Assembly: GCA_034387635.1 (NCBI GenBank)
Contig: JAOANU010000002.1
Span: forward strand, 1,612,001-1,676,000
Direction: 5' to 3'
DNA length: 64,000 bases
Source: Rhodosporidiobolus odoratus
Taxonomy: Eukaryota > Basidiomycota > Microbotryomycetes > Sporidiobolales > Sporidiobolaceae
A program made the position numbers and the translations under genes. This document shows, one piece after another, positions 16,375 through 33,762 of the stretch (position 1 is its first letter; each line of letters opens with the position of its first letter). The notes beneath the pieces were generated by a model, which was not told where the DNA came from, did not search any database, and saw only the letters and a program-made list of their open reading frames with translations.

Positions 16375-18881
16375 ATGGGAGAACCAGAACCGGTGCGTGT
16401 CACTCGCAGCCGCCTTACCTCACTTGCTCATCCTTTCTCTTCACTTCAGATCGAGCCGCAGCGAGGTACCAAGCGTCGAGCAGAAGACAACGTAGAAGAG
16501 GAACAGGCCTCGCGTAGGGTCTTTGCGGTGGGTTTGGGATACTCACTCCATCTAGTTCGACTCGCTGACCCGGTAGCATTGTCACTCAACAGCCGGAATC
16601 CCCCTCGAGAAGCAGCCCGCCTACTGCAACCGAATCACGTATAACTATCGCCGAAGTAAACCGTATCCGCGACATTGTCAAAGCCAAGATACCCCCTCTC
16701 CCGTACAGAGCCGTTCCAACTCTCGCAGAGAAACGGGCTAACAAACCCGCCGGTTCCTCCTTCTCCACCCGGTCCATCAAAGCCGCCGACATCCGCACAG
16801 GGTCCTGGCGCCTTTCGTCGACGCGCCGTCTTCCTGAAGGAGTTATTCCTGCCGTTCTCTCTGCCAGCGACAAGTTGCTGGCCCGGCTCGCCGCGGCAGC
16901 AGGAGACGCTATCGTCGGGGGAAATCACATACCCGGCGTTTACAGACATCTCAACTCCGACTACAGCGACGAGAAAGGATTGGAGCGCAACTTGATCTAC
17001 GCCTTGGAGCCTCTCGGGACGGCTCTGAACGGCGTGGCCGCGCTGCACCCACGCCTTGGCACGACTTGGGAAGTTCGCACCGACCTTGTCGCGTGGGAGA
17101 CCACGGAGACCGATATCACAATCTCTCCTTCCATAACTGAACCAGATTGTTACACGGGGGTTCTCATGGAGCTGAAGAAGAAGAAGGTTAAGGAGCTTCA
17201 CAAGGAGCTGTACGCCGACAAAGCGTTCCCGTATGTTGGATTTCCCGGTGGAGATGTTAAGACCGCTCAAGCGTATAACGGGACGGGCTGGGAACCACTG
17301 GGGCTGAAAAGAACAGCTATTTTCCAGGTGCGTTCCTCGTCGTCGTTTCTCTGCTTCCCCCTACGTTCCCGAATCAGTCACGGAGCTAGCTGTGCGGGCA
17401 GCGACCTCGCGCTGAACTATCTTACTGCAGATTCACTCCATCCTCTCCACAAAGAAAGCTCGTCTCCTTCGCGTCCACGAGTCTCGCTCCGCTGCATCGG
17501 TCTCTCTGGTCGTCGCAGACGGATCAGACTTCTTTGTCGTCTTCTCCTGGTCGACAACAGGCAGCAAAGGTACTCTACATCACCTGGCAACGTCGGAGCT
17601 CTACCACCTGTCCGACAACCCCAAGTCCGACAATGTTTCCCTGCGCGAGATCTGCTTCGCACTCGCTCTCTTCAATACGCGCGAGGATTTCTTGCCTGAA
17701 GGTATCAACCTCGAAGAGCACTACGGAACGCTTCCGCCATCACCGAAATCGCCTTCACGCAAGGAAGGTGAGGGCAGAGGGGAGGAAGGGACGGGAGGAT
17801 CCGAGGATCCGGAAGCGCCCGGCGGCGGAGATCTGGCGGAACCGAACAATCAGGGCAGGAGGATCACGCGAGGGTCTTCGGGGAAGAGAGGCGGACAGAC
17901 GAGGCAGATGTCAGAGTGGTCCGACGAGGACACATCACCCGATAAGGTGCGTGTTCTGTTTTTCTTTGGTGCCTGATCTTGTCCTGACTACATCTCCGTC
18001 TTTCGCAATGTTTTTGCTGATTCTCAAGCAGGCCCACTCGACTTTGAAGATCAGGGTCGTGATGCCGGGGACACTCGGCCCCATTCTGGCGCTCCGTGCT
18101 CTCTACCTGGTATGTCCTCTCCCCTCATTGGAGCGAGCTCATATCTCATCTCGCTGTGAATCGGCAGAGTCCAGAAACGACCCCTCCGCTTCGATCCGCC
18201 GCAGTCTTTGGCCATTCCACCAGCTACCCCTCGCCGCCCGACTCCTGCGGACCTCCTTCTCCTACCACCCTTCTCGAACTACGACACGAGCTTCACAAGA
18301 ACGAAGCGATTTCCGTCTACGCCGATGCGTCCTACAAGTACGCTGTGAAGATTGGCTGTGAGGTATGGGACAAGGAGGAGGACCGGAGCCTCGAGTTTGA
18401 CAACGAGGTGAAGCTCTACCCCGAAATTCATCGGAAGCAGGGTGCGGATCTTTGTCTTGTCAGGTGTCACGGGGTCTATGTGGGTAAGCATGTGTGTCTC
18501 GATTGGTTCGTGATTATTACGGAGTTTGGCGAGTCTTGCAAGTCCTGGCAGGAAGCGAAAGAGTACGCCCTTTCCCCCTTTGTTCTGTCTCGTTGTTTCG
18601 TCTCTTCTGCCTTGTGCTAACCTCGACTGTTGCTCTTGTCTTGAACCCGCAGACGCGACATTATCTCTCTCCTCCACCGCTTCCACGCCCTCGGATATTG
18701 CCACGGCGATGTTCACCCACGAAACCTCGTCATCACCCGCAAAGGCGAACTCCGGTTCATCGACCTCGGGAGGACGTTTGAGGCTACTGAGAAAGAGAGG
18801 GAGTCGGAGCTCGAGCGCCTCCTCAAGCGGCTCGATCAGGGGGACGAGGCGGAGGAAGATGAGGATGAGGATGGTTGGTGA
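16375..18881 (+). CDS. Divergent protein-kinase-like protein
   Basis: Seven exons: 16375-16392, 16450-16527, 16593-17327, 17431-17946, 18032-18109, 18168-18562 and 18653-18881. The N-terminal two thirds is unrecognised. From about residue 500 the frame carries kinase-like features: KNEAISVYADASYKYAVKIG (possible VAVK-type lysine strand), LYPEIHRKQGADLCLVRCHG, VIITEFGESC (hinge-like), then the catalytic loop CHGDVHPRNLVI with Asp and Asn in place and LRFIDLGR in the metal-binding position. The HGD..P.N + IDLG form is seen in fungal FunK1-like and small-molecule kinases rather than classical HRD/DFG kinases. The chain ends soon after in an acidic tail, so the C-lobe is short or absent. It may be active or a pseudokinase. 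The first exon is 18 nt, chosen because ATG 16375 feeds a good GTGCGT donor. Confidence 0.66.
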
Positions 18882-19873
18882 AACGGTACCTTTCCTCCTC
18901 TCTCTCGAGTCCGTCGTGTCTACTTGCCCTGTGCGCCGGGACATTTTTTGCTGACCGCTGCTGCGATTGTCCTGACGCTACCGTTGCCTTTTGCAGCCAC
19001 CTTCACACTCCCAGCCGGGAACGCGGTACCCTCCTTGCTCCATTCTGTTGCTTGTTCTCTTCTTGCATTCGCATTTTTCCCCTTCCGTTGATAGCAATCT
19101 GATTCTGTTTCTGCTTGTCTTGAGCGATTCACCTCTGTGCCCTTTCACCATCCAGCATCCTCTTTGCAATCCAGGATCCAGGATTTTCTCCCATCTTCAT
19201 TCTCATCCTCCTCGATCAGAGTGTCATTCCGGTCATTTGCGCGCAGACGGGAGCGTGGACGGGGGACCAGTACCCTCACTGAGGTCCGGTCTCGCTGGCT
19301 ACCCCCAGAGAGAAGTGCTGCAGGACCAAGCAATCCTGTTGACCCCATAGGTCGGAAGAGGCTTTCTCTCGACTTGAGCTTACACAATGTACTCGACCAT
19401 CTTGACAAGCAAGTACCCCAAGTTCAGCTCATAAGTCACGAGCTGTGTTGCAATGACATTGAACATGGGTCAAGGCTTTGCATTCCCTTCGGGAGCTTCT
19501 CAATTTCCCGTGTTGCCTTTGGCTTTCCCCTTCTCCTCGCAGGTTCGTTTCAAAGGGCCATCGCGACGTACCTCGCATGAGGAAACAAGCAGGCACGCAA
19601 ATTTTCAACAAAGTAGCTCCCGCGGCCTCGAGCACAACATGTGGAGGACGCCCTTTGATAACAGCTCAACGGACCCAAAAGAGGTAAGAGATCATGGAGG
19701 AAGATGATAGTAGTAGGATATGAGAGTTCAGTGTTTTCACCGAAATCAGGAAGGTGAGAGACGATGAAAGGGGGCGAGAGGGTAACTACTGCACGAGAAG
19801 AAAGCGAAGGAAGACGGGGCGGAGGGATCTACGACTGGGGTGTAAGAGCGAGAGGCAGGTGAAGAGGAGGTAT
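18882..19873. other. Interval with no supported gene
   Basis: Only short frames without family resemblance or consistent splice structure are seen. It contains the 3' flank of the kinase-like gene on the left and, on the right, the downstream flank of the minus-strand IDH1-like 3' fragment. Confidence 0.5.
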
Positions 19874-20023
19874 TTAAGGGATGGCTGTTGACATCGTGAA
19901 GAAGGAGTCAGCAGCTGGATCAGCCCAGGGCAAAGCTCCGAAGAGAAGTGGACACATACCTTTGATGATGGCCTGGGTGAAGTCGGTGGTCTTGGAGTTA
20001 CCGCCCATGTCAGGAGTGCGGAT
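19874..20023 (-). pseudogene. Detached 3' terminus of an IDH1-type NAD-isocitrate dehydrogenase gene
   Basis: Two joined pieces read right to left: 20023-19960 encodes [19 protein letters not shown] and two further residues, and 19884-19874 supplies the last residues and TAA after a GTATGT...CAACAG intron. A proper acceptor (GTCCGCAG) precedes the first piece at exactly the same codon as the last exon of the intact IDH1 gene (28992-29065). Protein similarity to that exon is high (about 16 of the first 20 residues) but DNA has diverged, and the intact gene lacks the extra intron. No other isocitrate dehydrogenase exon was found between 20.0 and 29.0 kb. It is therefore a terminal-exon fragment without a 5' gene, in the same orientation as IDH1 and about 9 kb downstream of it. 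Confidence 0.8.
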
Positions 20024-21481
20024 CTGCGGACAGATGGACCCGTCAGTGTACTACTCAGCAGCGTTTGAGGAAGGGAGAGGGAGAAAGGGGGAGAGAGCAG
20101 AGGGAAAACGAGGAGAAAGGGAAACTTTGCGCACATTGCGCCACGCCTTGGCACAGGCGCAGCAGGCCGCCGCCGTGCAAGGTCGCCAGGGAAAGGATGG
20201 GCGGCCAGCGAAAGTGATGAATTGAACCCCGACTCCGGGCAATCCGCGCCCTCGAGGGGAGTCAGTAGACTGTGAAGAAGCTCGGAATGCGGCACCGCAG
20301 GACACGGCGGCGAAAAGTTGGGCAGGATGTTGTAGTGAGTGGTGTGGCGGCGGTGAAAAGGCAGCTGTCGCCAACCATCGGGAACTCCTGCGACTTCTAC
20401 ACCTTGCCGTTGTCCATCGAGGCAATCGAGAACGGCTAGACGACGGCTGGGTAGGTATCGCTCAGGCCGGAGGAGTCGTTGCCGAGTTGCGATAGGTAAG
20501 GCCCGATACGCTGAAGAAGCGGTCTGAAAATTACCGCCACGGCGTACGAGGAGATAATCAGAGATGCAGCAAGCAAGAGCAACCGATTTGAGGTGAAGGG
20601 CGAGGCGGGCAGGATGCGGAGAGGGGGGGAGGTAGAGAAGGAGGGCTGCACCTCGCCCTCGAGACCTCAAACGCTGCTGCTTGCACCCGCACCACCATGC
20701 GAACCCTCCTCTCTACCTTTCCAGCCCGGCGCGCGGAAGGTTCACCCCCCTGCGGCCGCGGTAACTCCCCATCTCCTCTCTTCGTTCAACGCACCTCGTC
20801 CGGCAGTGCCTACCTCGCGCGAAGCGCGCGCGCATCCTCCTTACGCTCTTCATCACCCTTAGTACCCAGCCTCGTCCCTCAGCGGTCCGTCATCTGAGGT
20901 TCTCCCGTCGTCGGCAGACCCGCCCGACTCGCCCAAGTATGCGGGCGCAAATGGCGGGCTTTCGAACCGCGCAAGCAAGCAGCGACTTGGCGAGTGCCTG
21001 TTCAGCAGGGTGCTGCTGCGTGCAGCCCTGTACGTTGGCCTCCTGTGCGGTCGTGATGGCGTGCAGGAGGCGGTGTCGAGGACGAGGAGGGCGAGCGGAA
21101 GGTGTAACGGACAGCTCGCCGGGGCAGTCAAGGGGTCGCAGCAGGCTGTACGAGCATGTACTGGCGGGATAAAGTGCGAGCGAGTGCAGAGTCGGAACGA
21201 GAAAGGTGATTTTCTCGCCTCACCTTCCGCTCGTCGAAGCAAAGTTGACCTCTTCCTCGTTTCTCATTGCCGTTAGCCTCGTAACCCGCTACAAGTGGTT
21301 GAAATGATCACTGCAGCGGCGCACGACTCACTCGCTGCTCCGCTTGTTCTTCCATCCCGACCCTTCCCCATCCCACTCCTCCGTCTCCCTCCCAACCTCG
21401 CCAAACCTCCCTCCCGCCTCTCCCACGCCCTTTGCCGCATCGCAGGAGGGCTCGATCGGTTCCCACATCACCCAGCTGCCG
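20024..21481. other. GC-rich interval between the IDH1 3' fragment and the ubiquitin-like giant gene
   Basis: No recognised gene. A plus-strand frame about 20864-21276, opening after an AG, looks weakly coding (SPKYAGANGGLSNRASKQRL, later RVLLRAALYVGLLCGRDGV). It could be a 5' exon of the giant gene or a separate small gene, but no start codon or donor was established. A minus-strand frame at 20436-20560 has a hydrophobic run without family resemblance. Confidence 0.3.
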
Positions 21482-24400
21482 ATGCAGACCGTGCCGACGG
21501 AGTCAGCGGCGGCTGCGGCGCCAAACGAGGTGCACCTTGGGACGGAGGGGGGTGGCGCGAGCGGAGGCGCAAGGGTCGACGCGCAGGAGGAGGGATCGGC
21601 TGGAGACGTGCAGGGCAGCGCGAAGGAGGTGTCTGGGCAGGAGCAGGTCGTCAGCGAGGAGGAAAAGCAGGAGGAGGACGGCCCGCAGGAGCAGGATGAA
21701 AAGGCGGGGGATTCTGCAGCGCAGACCCCGGGTGCGTCTGCTTGCTTTCTTCTGCTCTCCCAAAGCCTGATGAAGTCTGTCTGCCTCCGCAGAGAATGCT
21801 CCCATCATCCCGCCGTCGTCTGCTCCCTCTTCATCTTCCTCCTCACCCGCCACATCCCCTCGTTCTACCTCGCACCGCGCGCCGCCCAGGTTCCGCGTAC
21901 TGAAGAAGAACACCAAGGCGCCTTCGAGCTGGTACGACCACCGGCCGGGCATCTCGTTCAGCGATAAGAACCCCCTCTCCCTTCCCGTCTACCCTCCCAT
22001 GTCGCCCTTCATCCGTCCTCCTCGCCAGCAGCGCGCGTCGAAGCAGGCGACGCCGGCGGAAGAGCTCCAGTCCACGGGCGAGGCTACTGCGGCGGCGGAG
22101 GACTTGCCGGATCGCTCGGCGTGTCCGGTGGGGAAGGACGATGAGGGGAAGGTCGAGGAGGACAAGGTCGAGGAGGTCAACGGGGCGACGGAGCAGGTCT
22201 GCGACGGGCAGGAAGTCAGTATCATGGCGGTCAAGGACGATGAGTGGACGACCGCCGCGCTTGAGGAGACCGGCGAGGAGGAGAAGGACGAGCAGATGGA
22301 GGAGCCGGAGGAAAGGGTCTCGAGCGTCGCTGCGGAGGAGCCGTCGCCGCAGAGGACGGAGGATGACGGAAGGACGAATGAGGAAGCGAGCAGCGCGATT
22401 GAGGAGGAGGACGTCACCCAGCGTGCGCTTCTTTCTTTCGCCCCTCTCGCCGCTGTACTCACGCGCGTCTTCACAGAACCGTGCTCCGTACCTGCTTCGC
22501 AACCTCACGCTCACCTCGACTTGTCTACTCCTCATCGCCGCAAGACCGCTCGTCATTGGCGAACGAAAACGCGGGAAGAGCGACGTCGTCAAGGACATGA
22601 TCAGCGCCGGCGTCAGCGCCACCGTCGGCGCGAGGAGAGGGATCTTCAGGAGCGGAGTGCGGGAGCGAAGCACGCTCGTGAGGGGCTCATCGAGATGCGG
22701 AAGGGCGAGGTGCATAGTGAGGAAGGAACGGTTTGCGAGGCAGGTGCGCGTGCTTCCTTCTTTCGCTTAGCGGCTTCCATACTGACCTCTGATGCGTCGG
22801 CTCCACAGCTGCCGACGAAGGGTATGCTGGCATTTTCGTCGTCACTTTCCCACCAGGACTCGCTCACTCACTCGCCTACTCTTACAGCTCCTCCGACCCC
22901 ACCTTCCTCCGCCAGCCAGCACCACAGATGTCGCATCACCGGACCAAGAGTCGTAAGCAACGGCAAGCCAGGGTCAAGAGGCGGCGGGACCTGCAGGCTT
23001 TTGATGGTGCGTTCCGAACAACTCCTCCTTTTTCGGATGTGAAGACTGATCCCCCATCTCTTGCTCTGGCGCAGAGCTGCTTCAGAAGATCACTACTGAG
23101 CTCGACGCGCCGAAGGCGTGCCCGCGCCCCCACTCGCCAACTCCACCCCGCTCCGCCCTTCCCTCAGCCGCTTCCGGAGGTCGCAGCCGGTCGTCAGCTC
23201 TCGCTTCTGCCGCCTCTTCTATCACCATCGGCGACTTCTCCTCGGTCTCCACCCGCTGTACCACCCCTTCACCTCGTCCTTGCAGCCCGTACGAGGACGA
23301 CGCACCGGCACTTGCTCCTGAGAAGGCCGAGGCGAGCACGTCGGGCAAGGTGACGGAGCTTGCGGAGGAGGTTGACGCAGGACACGTGGAAGATGCTTTG
23401 GAAGAGCGTGAGGAGGGCGTGTGCGAGCGCATGGGCGAGATGCAGCTGTTGATCAAGGCGGACAAGTATGTACGTTGCTTTCTTCCTTCTCTTCCTTCTT
23501 CGCAGGAGATCTGATAGACCCTGGCATGCAGAGCGCTATCTTCGTCTCGCGCTCCGCTACCGTCGGCGACCTCAAGGACAAGCTCTCGTTGGAGCGCGGC
23601 TACCCACGCGGAGAGATGAAGCTGACCTTTGGCAGGTCCATCCTCTGGGTACGCTTCTCCTCCTCTGCCTACCTCTGAAGCTCGCTGACGAACTTCTGCG
23701 CGCAGGACGATCAAGCTCCGCTCTCCTCCTGCGGCCTTACCGACTCGTCGCCTGCACCTCTCCTTCCGCGGTTGCGGCGGTACGCGGCACTACTTCAGCA
23801 GCATTGGCATTGCCGGCGCGCGCCAGACCGTCTCCGCGCGCAAACCGAGCAAGCCCAGCGGCACCGCTGTCATTGACGCGTTCGGCGTTTTCTACCGTTC
23901 GATGCTGCGCTCCCAGACCCTCCGCGGGTGTGCTCGCATCTTGCAGGAGAAAACTGAAGCTCTCCTCGGCTGGTTCCACGAGGTCGTCGCTGGGCTTCAG
24001 GACACGCAGAAACCCGGGAAGGAGGACCGCGCCGTCGAAGGCCCGCCCGTCAAGCAAGCTCACCGAGACGGCGGCATCACTCTCCCGCTCCTCGACAAGC
24101 CGATGTACGCAGCTCAGTACGTCGGCTACATGCCGCTGCTCAAGGATGGAGAGCGAAGCGAGGAACGGCGTTTCGAGACGGTCTGCAGTGGTGGCGACGG
24201 CGAGCTCTCGAGCTCGATAGCGTACGATGCGAAGCTTGCGGCGGGATTGGAGGAAACTGAACTCCGCACCAAGGCTACCGGTATGCCACATTATCTGCAC
24301 TCTCCTTTGTGAGCGGAACTGACATCTTCGTGCCCTCCAGTCGACGCCCATCCGCTCGTCCCCGTCGGTCTCGTCGAAGCCCCAGTTTCACCTGAGGAGG

Positions 24401-27400
24401 CCGCTGAGATCGTCCGCAAGCGTGACAAGCGCGAAGCCGACGGGACAAACCTCCTGCAAGAGCTTCTTGACGCGCTCGACGCAGAGGAGCTTGACGAGTG
24501 GGATTTCGTCAACAAGCTCGTCGAGATTATCAGCAACGGCGACATGCTCAGCGGCGCCAACACCCCCGACCGCGACGTTATCGAGCGCTTTTACATCAAG
24601 AAGGGCGTCCTGACAGCGACCATCGTCAACCTGCAGCTTGCGATTGAGCTCGCAGGCCGAGCTGCTCGCACCAAGATCCTCGAGGTCGACCCTTCCGCCA
24701 AGGACAAGCCCCTCCACTTCTTCGTCGACGCGGCCATGGCCACCGAGTGCCTCTGGGGTGACTACGGGTCGAATCAGACGGGCGGCGGAGTCGGCGAGAT
24801 CAGCTTCGCGCGCCTCTTCAACGAAGCCGACGGCGATCTCAACGCTCTCTTCACCTTAGCCACCGCTCGCGGCGGCGACTACAAGGGCCGGATCGCTTTC
24901 CTCCGCGGCGTGTGGAAGCACTACGTTCACCTCCCTGGCGTGGAGAAGGGCGTCGACATCTTCTCGGAGGAGCTCACCGACAAGCAGACATCGTCGGCGA
25001 GGTACGGCATGTGGTTCTGCCACTTCCCTCACGCCGTTCGCCTTCTCAACCGCGTTCTCACCGCGCTCGACTATCCAAAAAAGAACATTCTCGATCTCTC
25101 CGACGACGAGCAGTGGGGAGTCACGACGCGCTGGCTCCACAACAACCCTCCTGAAGGCCTTCACCACTGCGAGCCGAGTACGCCCTCTTCCTTCCCCCTC
25201 ACGGCTTTGCCATCTCCTTGGAGTTCCTGCTCATGCGACTTCCCTTCACAGCGACCCGCGCCCTCACATCCTCTTCCGGCAACTCCCTCCTTACCTCATC
25301 TTCCGCCCCCACCTCTACAACCCTCTCCCTTAGCGACTGGACCGGGACTGCCAAGCCGAACGACTTTCGCCGCCTCCCCCTCATCGGCTCGAACTTGCGT
25401 CCTCTCCACCTCGACCTTCGCGGAGTCACCACCCTCCTCGAGCGCGATCATGCGGACGACTACGACGAGGCAGTCGGCGCACCGGTTCTCGCAGCTGCCC
25501 TCGATCGCAGTGATTTCCTCCGCGGTCAGCGGGAGCAGGAGGAGAAAGAGGAAGCTGCGATCGAGGCGGCAGAGCTTGAGGCGTGGTGGGAGGAGCAGGA
25601 AGAAGTCGACTATTAGGCCGGCGAGCTTCAGAAAGGCAGCGACGAGCAGAGGCGTCGCAACGTCGGCAACGCCGTTCGCCGTCGCCAGGACGCAGCCCGT
25701 GACGTCGACAGCGACTGAGCCATCACCCTGATCTCCCTCTTAGACAACGCCCTCGCGCACTTCTGGCCAGAGCAGTACGCCAACAGCAGCACCCCCTCGC
25801 TCCGCGTCGCCGTCGAGCTGCGGAAGCGCAGCCAGGGGGGCCATCTTCCCTCGTTCCTTCACTTTCTCTCCCGCGACGGGAAGGAGCTCGCCACCACCAT
25901 CATCGTCGACTTCCGCCCCTGCGTCGACTTTGTCCGCACCCTCACGAGCCAGCAGCAGCGGGACGCCTTTGGCGGAGAGAACATTCTCCCGTCAGACCTC
26001 ATTCGTCACTTCCAGCGCTCCTCGCCGGCAGGCGCTGCCCGGTATCCGAGCGAGCAGATGCAGGCTATCTTCCGAGCCGTTCTAACGGACCGCAAGATCC
26101 CGACGCGCTCGGCCCGCTCGCAGCTTGCCAGCGAAGCCCTCGCCGCCAATCTCGACTGGCTCCTCCACCCCTCCCGCCTCACGGTCGCACTCTCGCTCCC
26201 GTCTGCTGACGAGTTCAAGACGGGTCAAAAGCGAGCGCACACGCGCAAGTCGGTGCGATACTTCGTGGACTTTGCAAAGCAGGTGAAGGACGACGGTTGG
26301 GACGCCGGTTCGTTCAATCCGTTTGCATTCTGGTCAGTGAGTGGCTCATTCAATTCGAGCTTGCAGTCACCGACAATCTCGCCGATCTCGATGCCTCTCC
26401 CGCCTTCTCCTCCCTTGCCCCCGCCCAGCGCCTTCTCTCCCACCAGCATCTCAGCCGCACCGAAGCCTGCCCGAGCTTCCGCTTTGAGCGGTACAACCTG
26501 TCGTGCTTTGTTCGCGTTCTCCTGAGGTGGATGAGCCTCCTCCCACTCGACGAGGCACACAAGCCGCCCAGAGTCACGCGAATGGCGGTCCTTCTGGGAT
26601 TCGCGACTCTCCCCGAGATTGATGCGGAGGTCGCGCGGCAGCGTAACCCCGAGATGACGCCCGCTCGCCGCCAGAAGCTGCGCGACTGGTTTTCTCAGCT
26701 GCAGCACCTCGACCACGTTGGTCAGTCCGCTGTGGCAAAGGCGTTCGCCCTCACCGAGCAAGTCCGCCCCGCACAGAACTCTATCATGGACAACCTCGTC
26801 CTCCTCGCCGACCTCGCTCTTCCTTCCGACGACCCCACCCATTCCTCCATCTCTCTCCGCTCTTCCGCTCCCTCCCGCTCAGATGCTCACTCCGAAGATG
26901 CCGACGGAAGCGCGGTCTGGTCCGCCGCCCGCACCGCCCAGCTCGGCGGCAAACCCCTCAGCGAGGTCTACCCGACCGGCGAGACCCGCTGGTGGTGGTG
27001 CGCCATTGGCGGCGAGGAGGTCGGGCTGCTCGAGCTCGAGCGCCGCAAAGTCGAGGATGGGCTCGATGACGAGCGCAGGCGAGTCGCGCAGGAGCTGTGG
27101 AAGTGGCCGGACGCGCTGAATCTTCCGGCGGAGACGCTTGTTGGCTGGGCGGAAGCGGTCGAGCCAGAAGTCGACCGCACCTGGCTGCGAGGATCGACCC
27201 TGAGCGAGGCTTACCAGATCGTGTACAACAAGGTTCTCGAACTTCGCCGCCGCGAGCACAAGATTGAGGCGGATGAGCCGCTGGACGAAGACAAGGTCGC
27301 CGCCCTTCTCGGTGGTCGGACAGTCTGCGAGAAGCGCGCCAAGGCGTTCAAAGGGCAGGTCTGTCTGTGGTGGATATCGGAGGATCCGATGACTTATCCT

Positions 27401-28873
27401 GAGAGCGTTGTGCTTTCCCCCGCCTCCCGCTTTTCCGTCCTCCGCCTTCCACCTTTGCCTTCCCCAAGCTGACGCACATTGCGCATGCCTGCTTGTACAG
27501 ACCCGCGCACGACGACCCTCGCTCCCCATACCGCCCTCCCGCTCGCAAGGGCACTGGCAAACGTCGCCAACCAACCGTCCCGAGCCAGCGCACCCTTCGC
27601 AGCGGCGGCCTGCCCGCTTCCTCCGCGCCTTCCGCTGTTGCGCCCGCAACCTGGACTTCCGCAAAGGCAAGGGAAAAGCGGTGGAGCCGTCGTCGAGCAG
27701 GAGGAAGACGAGGCGGGGCGACCCGGAGAGCGCTTGGGAGAATGACGAGGACGCCATGATGAGGATGGCCGGTGTGTTCCCTCTCGTTCGCTCTACTCGC
27801 GCTCTTGCTGACGACTCAATTACCGCCAGTCGAGCTGAGCAATGAGACATTCGCGGAAGAAGAGCAGTTGAGGCCGCCCGCCGAAGGTTCGAGTAGCAGG
27901 ACTACAGTGCGTGCTTCTTCCCTTTCGCATCACTATCCCCTCTTCGCTTGCTGCCCCGGGTTGCGACGCGTGCGCAGACTAACGATCGCCTTTCCGCAGT
28001 GGTCTGCATCCGGCGCATCCTCCTCCACCGCATCTTCCTCCTCCTCCTCCTCCTCCGCGCTCGACCGCTCGACCTCGGCCTCTTCTCCCTCGTCTGCACC
28101 GCGTTCGAAACGCCTTCCCTCGATCGCAGACCGCCTCGGTCACAGCGAGGTTTACTGCGAAGAGGACGATACCTACATGATGTCGGAGGCCGCCGCGGGC
28201 GTCGCGCAGACCAGTGAGTTCCGCCTACTCTTCGCGTATCGTTTGCTTACGTCCTACTCCACTTGCAGCCCTGTCGCAACGGCCAAAGAAGGTCAAGAGG
28301 AAAAGGGCAGTACCGGCAGAGAGCGAAGACGACGAACCGGTGCGTCGCAGTTTCGTCCTTTGCTCCGTCCATTGCGCCATCATGCTCCGTTCGCAATCTC
28401 GACGCGCCGCGCTGCCGACAAGGCTTTTGCCTCTCGCCGACTCGACTCGCCTCCATTCTCACAGCACACTAATGTCCGCCCTTTCTTCGCTTCCAGTCCC
28501 CTGCCTCGTCTTCCACCAAGCTCAAGCGTCCGCCGAAGGCGACTTCGAAGTCCACCGCGAGCTGTACGTCCGGTTTGTCCCCGTTCATGCTTCCCCGTCT
28601 TCCGGCTGACCGCCAAGTTTCACAGCATCCGCAACGGCACGAAAAGAGCAGCTCGACAACAGGCGACGCGAGGATGCATCGCGCTGGGCGTGCTCTGACG
28701 ACGAGGAGCACTACAATGTGCAACCATTCCTCCGGCTGAAACACAGCTCACGATCTCGTCTCATGCCTTTGTTTTGCTTCGCACGGAGAAAGGAGGGCCC
28801 GTGGAATGAGAGCGGAAGAAAGCGAGAATGCCTCGCGAAAGGACAGCGAGAAGGGCCTGAACAGCGCGGATAG
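21482..28873 (+). pseudogene. Giant gene with ubiquitin-like domain, disrupted by stops and frameshifts
   Basis: A series of long GC3-rich frames joined by GTGCGT/GTACGT...CAG introns. From the N-terminus: an acidic Glu/Gln/Ala-rich region (21482-22420, ATG 21482 is the first in that frame), a charged region, a Ser/Pro-rich region, then a ubiquitin-like beta-grasp fold (about 23436-23790: MQLLIKADKY, SATVGDLKDKL, GEMKLTFGRSILWDDQAPL, LHLSFRGCGG). A long mostly helical part follows, with LLQELLDALDAEELDEWDFV, PLHFFVDAAMATECLWGDYG and RYNLSCFVRVLLRWMSLLP, then a basic/Ser-rich tail ending near TAG 28871-28873. In-frame TAG (25614) and TGA (25718) interrupt an otherwise continuous frame. One-base frame changes occur near 23748 (inside the ubiquitin fold) and near 25330. 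I do not recognise the long C-terminal region. Recent inactivation, or sequencing error at several sites, would both give this picture. Confidence 0.6.
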
Positions 28874-28991
28874 ACCGGCTATGGTTTGTACAAGAGAGAC
28901 GGACTACGCACTACAGAAGCACCCTCATTCTACGCCTGCAAGCCCCCGCGCCGGCTCGCACACCCGCAACTTGCCAACAACGACCCATCTT

Positions 28992-31495
28992 TTAGACGGA
29001 GATCTTCTTCATGACCTCGTGCGTGAAGTCGGTAGTCTTGCTCGAGCCACCCATGTCCGGCGTACGGATCTGTATGAGGCGAGGGAGGTCAGTGTGATGG
29101 AGAGATAGGAGGAAAACCGCAACTCTGCGATTTTCAGGTCGATTTACCTTGCCCTCTCGGATAACCTCGTAGGTTGCCGACGCCACAGCGTTCGCCTTAT
29201 CCGTAATGCCCAAGTGGCGCAACATCATGGCGGACGACAAGATCATAGCCGCCGGGTTGGCCACGTCTTGACCTGCGGGAGTGATAGAGCGTCAGCGGAA
29301 AGCGCTGTGCAAACACTGAATGGAACGGGGGCGCGAAGGGAGAAAAACCGCCCTGCGAGCGATCTTCCTCCCCGCCGTGAACGGCTCTCGCTCTCGCCCC
29401 TGCTCCTTCTGCCGCGCATGGCATACGCAGCTCACCGCATCGCTGAGAGCAGCGAGCTGGCGAGCCAGGGGCAGGATAACGAACGAAGAAAGACCGCCCT
29501 TCGGACGACCTTCTCAACATCCCTTCCGCCCCGACAGCGCCCGCGCGCCGCAGCTCGCCCATCCGGCCTTGCGCGCACATGGACACAAGCGTCCGACCAC
29601 CCTGCCCCGGCCGCCGAGCGACCCGCGAGGAAAATCGCCCTCGCCACCCTCCTCTCTTCGTCCTTCGCCGCTCTCACTAGCCTCAACAGCATCCATAAGC
29701 TCACCCTGAATGTCCTTGGCCACATGCCTACATCCCGGCTCGAACAAGGCAAACTCCCTGCCAATGTTGGCACCTGGAACAATACCAGGGCCACCCACAA
29801 GAGCGGCACCAATGTTGGAAACAATGGATCCCTGCAAGCACGCAATCAATGGTCAGCCACTCTTCTGACTCGTCCAGCTCGTACAGGCTTTTCGAGTTGG
29901 GGGTAATGGAGAAGACGAGGAAGAAAACGCACGTAAAGGTTGGGCATGACCATGACATCGAATTGTTGCGGGCGGTTGACGAGCTGCATAGAGGTGTTGT
30001 CGACACTACCGGCGTGGCGTGCAAGATCGGTCATCGAATCAGAGGGGGATATCGAGGCGAGAAGGCGGAGAGCGGAAACGAGGGAAGAGATAATGCGCGA
30101 AATAGGGTCAAATCGCACCGTCAGTAAGAGCCAGATGAGACAAGGAGAAGATGGCAGACAACGCACATCATGTCGGAGAAGGTGATGCCCGAGTCCTTGT
30201 ACTCCTCAGCGACCTTGCGGCAGGTGTTGAGGAAGAGACCGTCTCCGAGCTTCATGATGTTGGCCTTGTGGACGGCGGTGACGTGCTGCAAAGTGACAAG
30301 CGTCAGCAAGGAGAGCGGAGAGGCGCGAGTCGGAAGAACAGAATAGGCGCTGAGGACAACGCAGGTGGAGGTGAAACGACGGCCAAAGAGACGCACCTTC
30401 CTGCCGTTCTTGACAGCAAAGTCAAACGCAAACCGAGCGATCCGCTCACTCTTCTTCCTGGTCATGATCTTGAGACTCTCGACCACACCGGGGTAAGACT
30501 GGTGCTCGAGGCCCGAGTACTCTCCCTCGGTGTTCTCACGGATGATGGCAAAGTCGACGTCGCGGTGGCGGGTAGGGAAGCCCGGAACGGACTTGCAGAG
30601 GACGACAGAGGCGTAGATGTCGAGCTGTTGACGCATGGCGACGTTCCAGGAGGTGTGGCCGGAGCGCTCGAGGGGAGTGTAAAGGATACCTGAGAAAGAA
30701 AGGCGGATAAGGTCGATCGTAGTCATAAGACTATGACTGCCACTCGAGCAGAAGGCGGAGAGGAAGCAGGAAACGTACCCTTGAGTCCAACCTTGTTCCT
30801 CCTCAGCGAGTCCATGGCCCTCTTGAAAAGCGCCGCATCATCACTGGTCTCCCCCGAGATGTTGAACTTTTCGAACTCGACGGGGACGTTGAGGTGCTCG
30901 AAGATCTCCTCGACGGATTGAGTGATCTCGCGACCGACACCGTCACCGGGGATGAGGGTAACCTGAAAAGATGTAGCCGCCGAGAGGGAAAGTTGCCGTG
31001 CGAAGTGGAGACGCGCCGAGGCGAGTCCGGAGACGTATTGGACAGGTTACAATGCGGCGAGGCAAGGCAAGGAAAGCAAAGGAAAGAAGGGGATTGACGA
31101 AGGTTGAAGCAAGAATAGGGAAAGGCGAGGGAAATGCGGGTCATGTCGGGAAGCAGTATGGAGGCATGGGGGGCAGGCAGGCGTCAGCGCAGTGTATCCG
31201 TAGCGGAGGAAAGGAAGGCCTGACGGAGTAGACGCCTCCGTACTTGGTAGGCGTGACCGGGCTGGCGACGGGCCTGGAGATACCGACGCCGAGGGTGGTA
31301 GCGAGGCGAGCCTGGCCGGCCTGTTGCGACGAGGTCCCAGGTTTCAGGTTAGGCGTTGAGAGAATGACCGGCGGGATCGGATGAGCGAGATGAACGAGTT
31401 GATCAGTTCAAGGTGACGAGCGGAAAGAGGACGGAAGGGAGACGTACAAGGGCCTGGCGGGCAGTCGGAATGAGAGTCGAGGGCTTGGGGAACAT
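28992..31495 (-). CDS. IDH1: NAD-dependent isocitrate dehydrogenase, IDH1-type (regulatory) subunit
   Basis: Multi-exon gene read right to left. ATG 31495 opens a short mitochondrial-type leader ([16 protein letters not shown]). The dehydrogenase fold follows: [134 protein letters not shown] and the last exon [20 protein letters not shown]...ISV, stop 28992-28994. With IDH2 it forms the mitochondrial NAD-IDH that makes 2-oxoglutarate in the TCA cycle. The IDH1-type call is from the SGLEHQ..PGVVES variant and the C-terminus. The intron between IQG and QDVANP (about 29280-29704) is far longer than its others. It is divergent from IDH2; its 3' end abuts the giant-gene block. Confidence 0.93.
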
Positions 31496-31670
31496 GACTG
31501 GTGTGCTTGACCCTTGATAGACCCGGTAGGAATGGACACAGAGACGAGCGAGATCAGATTTGAGAGCTTCAAACGAATTCCAAGTCGGCGACTGGTTCCG
31601 CTGGTTCCGCTGGATTAATTCTTCCGCTGTACTCCCGTGCTGCTCCCTCAGAGTCACAAGCAGACCTGTC
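31496..31670. promoter_or_regulatory. Bidirectional IDH1/IDH2 promoter region
   Basis: Only 175 bp separate the ATG of IDH1 (minus) from the ATG of IDH2 (plus). Both encode subunits of one hetero-octameric enzyme, so a shared promoter giving balanced expression is likely. No TATA box is evident. The assignment is positional. Confidence 0.6.

Positions 31671-33762
<2,092 letters not shown>

Follow-up and report, generated by a model that had tools for sequence, protein, structure and literature searches.

The locus described here raises the question of why an essential gene, IDH1, should possess two 3' ends lying 9 kb apart on the same strand, and of what occupies the DNA between them. It is found in a 64,000-nucleotide stretch of contig JAOANU010000002.1 (assembly GCA_034387635.1), called the window hereafter, which belongs to contig C2 in a 24.8 Mb genome distributed over 45 contigs. 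From the protein comparisons given below, the last two exons of the window's IDH1 appear to come from another lineage, and the block separating the two ends is probably a degenerate homing-type element living beside its target gene.

The IDH1 gene is intact on the minus strand (31495-28992). Its nine exons, established by spliced translation (31495-31448, 31320-31225, 30962-30779, 30689-30397, 30285-30167, 30005-29933, 29831-29705, 29272-29148 and 29069-28992), yield a product of 380 residues without internal stops, the final 25 residues being encoded by the last, proximal exon. Splice signals, protein comparison and a search of the window identified a second last exon of 21 residues on the same strand (20023-19959). 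It is preceded by a CAG acceptor and followed, after a GT..AG intron of 75 nt with no counterpart in the proximal end, by a final small exon of 11 nt (19884-19874, minus strand, spliced translation) which encodes AIP and a stop codon of its own, for a total product of 24 residues. The acceptor phase is the same at both ends. The two last exons are 9,046 bp apart (74% identity over 65 nt in the repeat search); their first 63 nt align without gaps at 45 identical positions, and blastn detected them at 78.6% over 56 nt (E 1e-5). With the Rhodosporidiobolus odoratus IDH1 protein as query, tblastn retrieved the displaced exon with an E-value of 1e-8, so that its resemblance to IDH1 is beyond chance. 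No further IDH1 exon was found in positions 1-28990 of the window, and in particular no exon 8 accompanying the displaced copy. A search of the whole genome with the IDH1 protein recovered only IDH1, the displaced exon and paralogue exons at 34-51%.

Relatives of the window's IDH1 were collected by a protein comparison in which 1280 proteins passed a threshold of E 1e-120 among 7994 scored; 120 of them were listed (70-95% identity) and 26 of those were aligned. Among the matches listed, the nearest were R. odoratus (95%) and R. nylandii (93%), and the two parts of the protein relate to them differently. Over residues 1-313, encoded by exons 1 to 7, the window's protein is identical to R. odoratus at 312/313 positions and to R. 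nylandii at 296/310. Over residues 314-380, the corresponding counts are 47/66 and 57/67, and the contrast between 312/313 and 47/66 with R. odoratus is highly significant (Fisher p 6e-15). The last exons separate more sharply still: the proximal one shares 24 of 25 residues with R. nylandii and 17 of 24 with R. odoratus, the displaced one 23 of 24 with R. odoratus and 17 of 24 with R. nylandii. Exon 8 is less clear-cut than exon 9, with 33/42 for R. nylandii and 30/42 for R. odoratus. The nine other relatives compared (P0003-P0011, comprising Sporobolomyces, Rhodotorula and one further sequence) are all closer to the displaced type, some of them by one residue. Among the 26 aligned relatives, of which P0016 is truncated at the C-terminus and P0037 mis-modelled, the 12-residue C-terminus of the proximal type occurs in R. 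nylandii only. In trees of 15 sequences, the 5' part puts the window beside R. odoratus, with an ultrafast bootstrap of 98, whereas from the 3' part its partner is R. nylandii, with a value of 96.

The switch of relationship is located at about residue 313/314, near the border of exons 7 and 8. The replaced part would therefore comprise exons 8 and 9 (28992-29272, minus strand, residues 314-380), its R. nylandii-like character being clearest in exon 9, and its 5' border would lie in or adjoin intron 7 (29273-29704, minus strand). Because no exon 8 turned up beside the displaced copy, the R. odoratus state is not derivable from the window state by simple deletion, which argues for a replacement in the window's lineage: there, the 3' end of IDH1 appears to have been exchanged and the native end pushed outward. 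As exon 8 is less clear, the donor would be a lineage related to R. nylandii in the 3' part and not R. nylandii itself. Intron 7 is also unusual in itself: at 432 nt and 66% GC it exceeds the remaining seven (78-262 nt, 50-59% GC), and its length and GC richness coincide with the border between the gene's two histories.

These results can be set against a sequence-only reading of the locus, which had described a second terminal exon about 9 kb downstream with acceptor, intron and stop but no upstream exons. Spliced translation and the window and genome searches confirmed this description, and the full second IDH1 near 20 kb that would have spoken against that reading was found neither in the window nor in the genome. 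It had also anticipated that the displaced exon would group with the host species and the proximal one with the element; at the protein level the two are indeed nearest to R. odoratus and to R. nylandii, respectively. The empty site that it called for, with the native end continuous with the gene, is seen in R. odoratus at the level of protein, not DNA. Its proposal of a replacement at the last exon holds for the 3' end as such but has to be amended for the starting point, which lies earlier, about where exons 7 and 8 meet.

The block between the two ends consists mainly of one intron-rich gene on the plus strand pointing towards IDH1 (21482-28740), delineated from a phase-matched exon chain, codon-position GC and a resemblance to genes of contigs C1 and C15. 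With predicted borders, its first six exons are 21482-21731, 21793-22422, 22477-22743, 22809-22821, 22888-23006 and 23075-23469, and the next five 23532-23648, 23706-24280, 24341-25177, 25252-26336 and 26429-27409. Low-complexity exons seem to continue beyond 27409 to about 28740, and no gene was recognised in 20026-21481. In four stretches of its long exons, GC at the three codon positions (GC1, GC2 and GC3) was 0.65-0.69, 0.39-0.49 and 0.77-0.81, respectively, a pattern of real genes. A ubiquitin-like domain ending in GG was detected at 23440-23781 on the plus strand (PF00240), scoring 29.8 bits across one frame break for a cutoff of 25.4, and 16.9-17.3 bits otherwise. Since reading through raises the match from about 17 to 29.8 bits, the reading frame is likely broken near 23750. 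Two in-frame stops on the plus strand, TAG (25614-25616) and TGA (25716-25718), fall in a stretch set against the C15 coding sequence by MAFFT in a low-confidence alignment. The window copy of the gene is thus probably dead or broken. The ubiquitin-like domain directly precedes the part aligning with the C1 and C15 proteins and was not seen in the models of these two; a fusion cleaved after GG would, if true, be a novelty among elements of this sort.

A frame break near 26337 was dropped from the gene model: an intron with a GTGAGT donor fits there, and the C15 gene shifts frame at a roughly equivalent place, the predicted introns of the C2 and C15 genes in this region being of different phase. 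GC richness was likewise rejected as a sign of foreign origin. The block does reach 62-64% GC per kb in 20001-28000 against 51-62% elsewhere, as the sequence-only reading had remarked, but the GC3 of its exons resembles that of IDH1 exons 1-7 (0.77).

Searching the genome with a block exon recovered a gene on C1 (30% identity over 94 residues, E 3.6e-4), and the C1 protein in turn recovered a gene on C15 (22% identity, E 0.0015). The C1, C15 and C2 proteins, the last being that of the window, are colinear, with 23-33% identity in their main stretches. The local scores of the C1-C15 and C1-C2 pairs exceeded all 400 local-window shuffles, with Gumbel p-values of 6e-9 and 2e-7, respectively. By inspection, C1 and C2 have an intron in common at an equivalent place, after C1 residue 162, where C15 has none, and C15 and C2 each seem to possess an intron shortly after the DDWEDGAF/DDGWDAGSF motif, with different phases as modelled. 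The C1 member (C1:1377317-1380963) looks intact, lying in a stop-to-stop frame of 1150 codons, and immediately follows CPA2 in the same orientation. The C15 gene model also needs one frame break. In the protein database, no homologue of the element protein was detected at E 0.01 among the 7996 and 7993 candidates scored for two queries, a weak negative since the search reaches relatives sharing exact five-residue words and one query held about 30 residues now read as intron. Relics of further elements were absent at E 0.5 from the rest of the window and from the fetched C1 and C15 flanks.

The C15 gene provides a second case. It lies between two parts of KGD2, which encodes dihydrolipoamide succinyltransferase. 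KGD2 is complete to C15:315734; the family gene follows on the minus strand, opposite to KGD2 (C15:320296 to about 316000), and a second, displaced KGD2 3' end is found at C15:321536-321784. The two KGD2 ends are identical at 128 of 183 nt and at 51 of 61 protein positions, and their introns as modelled differ in place, after GREA in the proximal copy and before VVALTYDH, with a GC donor, in the displaced one. By arrangement alone, KGD2 repeats what is seen at IDH1, namely a complete 3' end, a family gene and a displaced 3' end, and in both cases the family gene is tail-to-tail with its host gene. Together with the chimeric IDH1, this case supports the sequence-only proposal of an integrated element carrying a replacement 3' end and displacing the native one. 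Genome-wide, the KGD2 tail was found in the two ends, in a C6 paralogue at 40% and in a small remnant at C15:323429-323488, to which a piece at C15:323224-323284 can be added (86.7% over 60 nt). The remnant consists of exon stretches up to GTPILDSPR, ending where the displaced end begins, and is possibly the trace of an older round.

If replacement is recurrent, a fast divergence of the IDH1 3' part is expected where the elements live. This was examined in 17 of the 26 aligned relatives, the nine others being left out as unassigned to a group, truncated or mis-modelled. Among the 10 pairs formed by five species of Rhodosporidiobolus and Rhodotorula, the divergence was 0.039 in residues 45-313 and 0.283 in residues 314-376, corresponding to a 3'/5' ratio of 7.3 (5.1-19.9 for single pairs). 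The ratio was 1.74 within five Sporobolomyces species (0-8.5 for single pairs, which show few differences) and 1.62 within seven outgroups; for pairs joining Sporobolomyces to the outgroups, it was 1.59. In the Rhodosporidiobolus and Rhodotorula group, divergence rises about tenfold near residue 309, from 0.02 in residues 276-308 to 0.22 in residues 309-341; between Sporobolomyces and the outgroups it passes from 0.06 to 0.14 over the same intervals. These pairs are non-independent and the IDH1 C-terminus is less conserved in every group, and with this reservation the sequences suggest a repeated replacement of the IDH1 3' end among Rhodotorula and Rhodosporidiobolus species.

From the chimeric IDH1, the displaced end, the family gene and the same arrangement at KGD2, a cycle of cutting, repair, resistance and mobility may be proposed, analogous to the model published for WHO elements (PMC7282813). 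In an element-free chromosome, the element protein would break both DNA strands close to where the last exon of IDH1 starts. Repair on an element-bearing chromosome would then bring in the element together with its diverged 3' end. This incoming end would keep the essential IDH1 working and, through its differing sequence, escape recutting, while the old 3' end would stay as a fragment usable as a homology arm in the next round. Afterwards the element gene would decay, as in the window. The three genes are best read as an independent family of nuclear homing-type elements.

Several observations weigh against this interpretation. Above curated Pfam cutoffs, ubiquitin was the only domain in the element pieces searched, and no nuclease domain was detected, although divergence past detection is possible. 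Below threshold, the strongest hint was a Myb-like DNA-binding stretch, located in the last of the large exons (15.5 bits for a cutoff of 27, E 0.019). LAGLIDADG, HNH, C2H2 and PD-ExK patterns were not found in the three family models, and an AlphaFold model of the C1 open frame was uninformative (mean predicted local distance difference test score, pLDDT, of 41, from an alignment of seven rows of which six were fragments). The cohesion of the family depends on C1, whose own match to C15 is distant. The C15-C2 link is weak, 1 of 400 shuffles reaching its score (p 0.006); genome searches with C15 pieces found C15 alone, and C1, but not C15, was recovered with the entire C2 model. Beside the C1 member no displaced CPA2 end was found. 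The element gene in the window has two stops and probably one frame break though the event looks recent, and the KGD2 remnant (C15:323224-323488) is left unaccounted for by the simple model.

Other explanations were weighed against the same data. Recombination between species, or introgression, could have swapped the IDH1 3' end with the neighbouring gene as a passenger, the native exon being displaced by a single illegitimate insertion without any homing activity. The chimera would merely need a donor from a related lineage, and the missing nuclease domain fits such an event; it would have to coincide, however, with the same three-part arrangement and a related gene at KGD2, and the acceleration of the 3' end is clade-wide, not that of a single event, which makes this account unlikely. 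A transposon of another kind, for instance one able to transduce flanking sequence, could instead have landed near IDH1 with a 3' end as accidental cargo; one large gene, a ubiquitin-like domain and few distant relatives elsewhere are in keeping with this. Starship, Crypton and KDZ elements are transposons with recombinase or transposase domains, and no Pfam match above cutoff to such domains (including the Starship tyrosine recombinase) was obtained in the block pieces searched. Among the 98 inverted-repeat pairs of 18500-31600, the 25 longest include none with arms at both block borders, and the block DNA has no second copy in the genome, two short repeat-like matches on C17 to a TCC-rich stretch aside. 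With two of the three family members sitting between a neighbour gene and its displaced end and not in random DNA, we regard this origin as very improbable.

If the IDH1 3' end had been duplicated locally in tandem, one copy diverging fast and a gene arising or being captured in between, both ends would be recognisable as IDH1, open and spliced, as they are. Divergence in place does not give a proximal end nearest to R. nylandii and a displaced end nearest to R. odoratus, each matching at all but one residue, and no exon 8 was recovered with the displaced copy; we hold this scenario to be about as improbable as the transposon. The shared acceptor phase would also allow the two last exons to serve as alternative 3' ends through regulated splicing. 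A 9-kb splice over a whole gene would be extraordinary beside IDH1 introns of 78-432 nt, and the relatives' proteins have one end or the other, so that hardly any credence is left for alternative splicing.

The homing-type reading has close parallels. WHO elements are free-standing genes located directly downstream of the essential metabolic gene FBA1 in Torulaspora and Lachancea; their proteins are described as deriving from inteins and bearing a zinc finger, and for one of them cleavage of FBA1 has been demonstrated (Coughlan et al. 2020, PMC7282813). The WHO and IDH1 elements have in common a replaced host 3' end, an old end pushed outward as a fragment, a chimeric host gene, discordant trees and a fast 3' end, a more diverse 3' part of FBA1 being likewise a main trace in WHO-bearing yeasts (PMC7282813). 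Pseudogenes are frequent and some members stand at other loci in WHO as here, and one WHO12 gene lies beside its host gene without fragments, to be compared with the C1 member. Unlike WHO, the elements here have a protein that is unrelated as far as visible, with a ubiquitin-like domain in one member, and they use IDH1 and KGD2 as hosts, in a basidiomycete.

WHO proteins are of the LAGLIDADG kind. In the pieces and models searched, we found no intein-like LAGLIDADG endonuclease with a zinc finger related to HO or VDE. At IDH1 and KGD2, but not at CPA2, a gene separates the complete host gene from a displaced piece of its 3' end, a chimeric host gene with a different 3' history was found for IDH1, and FBA1 is not the host. 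The side-by-side structure of replacement 3' end, gene and displaced end is present in full at IDH1 and by arrangement only at KGD2. The element would thus act like a WHO element without being one by its features, and may be described as a side-by-side homing element with a replacement 3' end. Mitochondrial genes offer another parallel, the mORFs reported at atp6, atp9, cox2 and nad3 of a Glomus species and at atp6 of Allomyces (PLoS One 2013, PMC3630166). There, a foreign carboxy-terminus likewise replaces the native one, which lies downstream of an endonuclease gene and resembles close relatives more than the foreign one does. The mORFs are organellar, with LAGLIDADG or GIY-YIG endonucleases and sometimes in phase with the host, whereas the gene here is nuclear, intron-containing and on the opposite strand. 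The contigs measure 1.9 and 0.65 Mb, the introns are GT..AG and no LAGLIDADG or GIY-YIG domain was found; isolated GVY and YIG triplets occur in the family models, in the wrong order in C1. VDE, other inteins and intron-encoded homing endonucleases also home into host genes, but they interrupt them and need splicing (PMC7282813), while here the gene adjoins its host. The strategy is thus rare, as the sequence-only reading had supposed, but not unprecedented, and WHO elements and mORFs are closer parallels than the phages at tRNA genes which that reading invoked.

The listings retrieved by our literature searches comprised the WHO report, a review of organellar introns and five papers on mitochondrial introns or mitogenomes, and none of them showed such elements in a basidiomycete nuclear genome. 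With WHO-type elements described in budding yeasts, this kind of element may extend beyond them. The widest claim, which we consider somewhat more credible than its denial, is that Sporidiobolales harbour a second, independently evolved nuclear family of side-by-side homing elements whose protein is of a new kind, joined in one member to a ubiquitin-like domain. On this claim, the family targets the 3' ends of consecutive genes of the tricarboxylic acid cycle (IDH1 and KGD2) and has exchanged that of IDH1 repeatedly in Rhodotorula and Rhodosporidiobolus, which would explain the divergence jump near residue 313. A second unrelated family in basidiomycetes would, if true, mean that selfish genes can take up 3'-end replacement as a lifestyle more than once, possibly involve a new kind of nuclease, and explain why the C-terminus of an essential enzyme has a history of its own. 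Trees of red-yeast IDH1 may accordingly blend two histories. The intact-looking C1 gene makes the central claim directly testable.

Two minor searches with the element are reported for completeness: PHROGs returned one family of unknown function (E 0.059), and the one element piece tried gave no match in the PDB at E 1. On the other side of IDH1, a second NAD-IDH-like gene, presumably IDH2, is placed head-to-head with it, its ATG being at 31671 on the plus strand. Its exons are 34-51% identical to IDH1, and the two genes may share a promoter of at most 175 bp.

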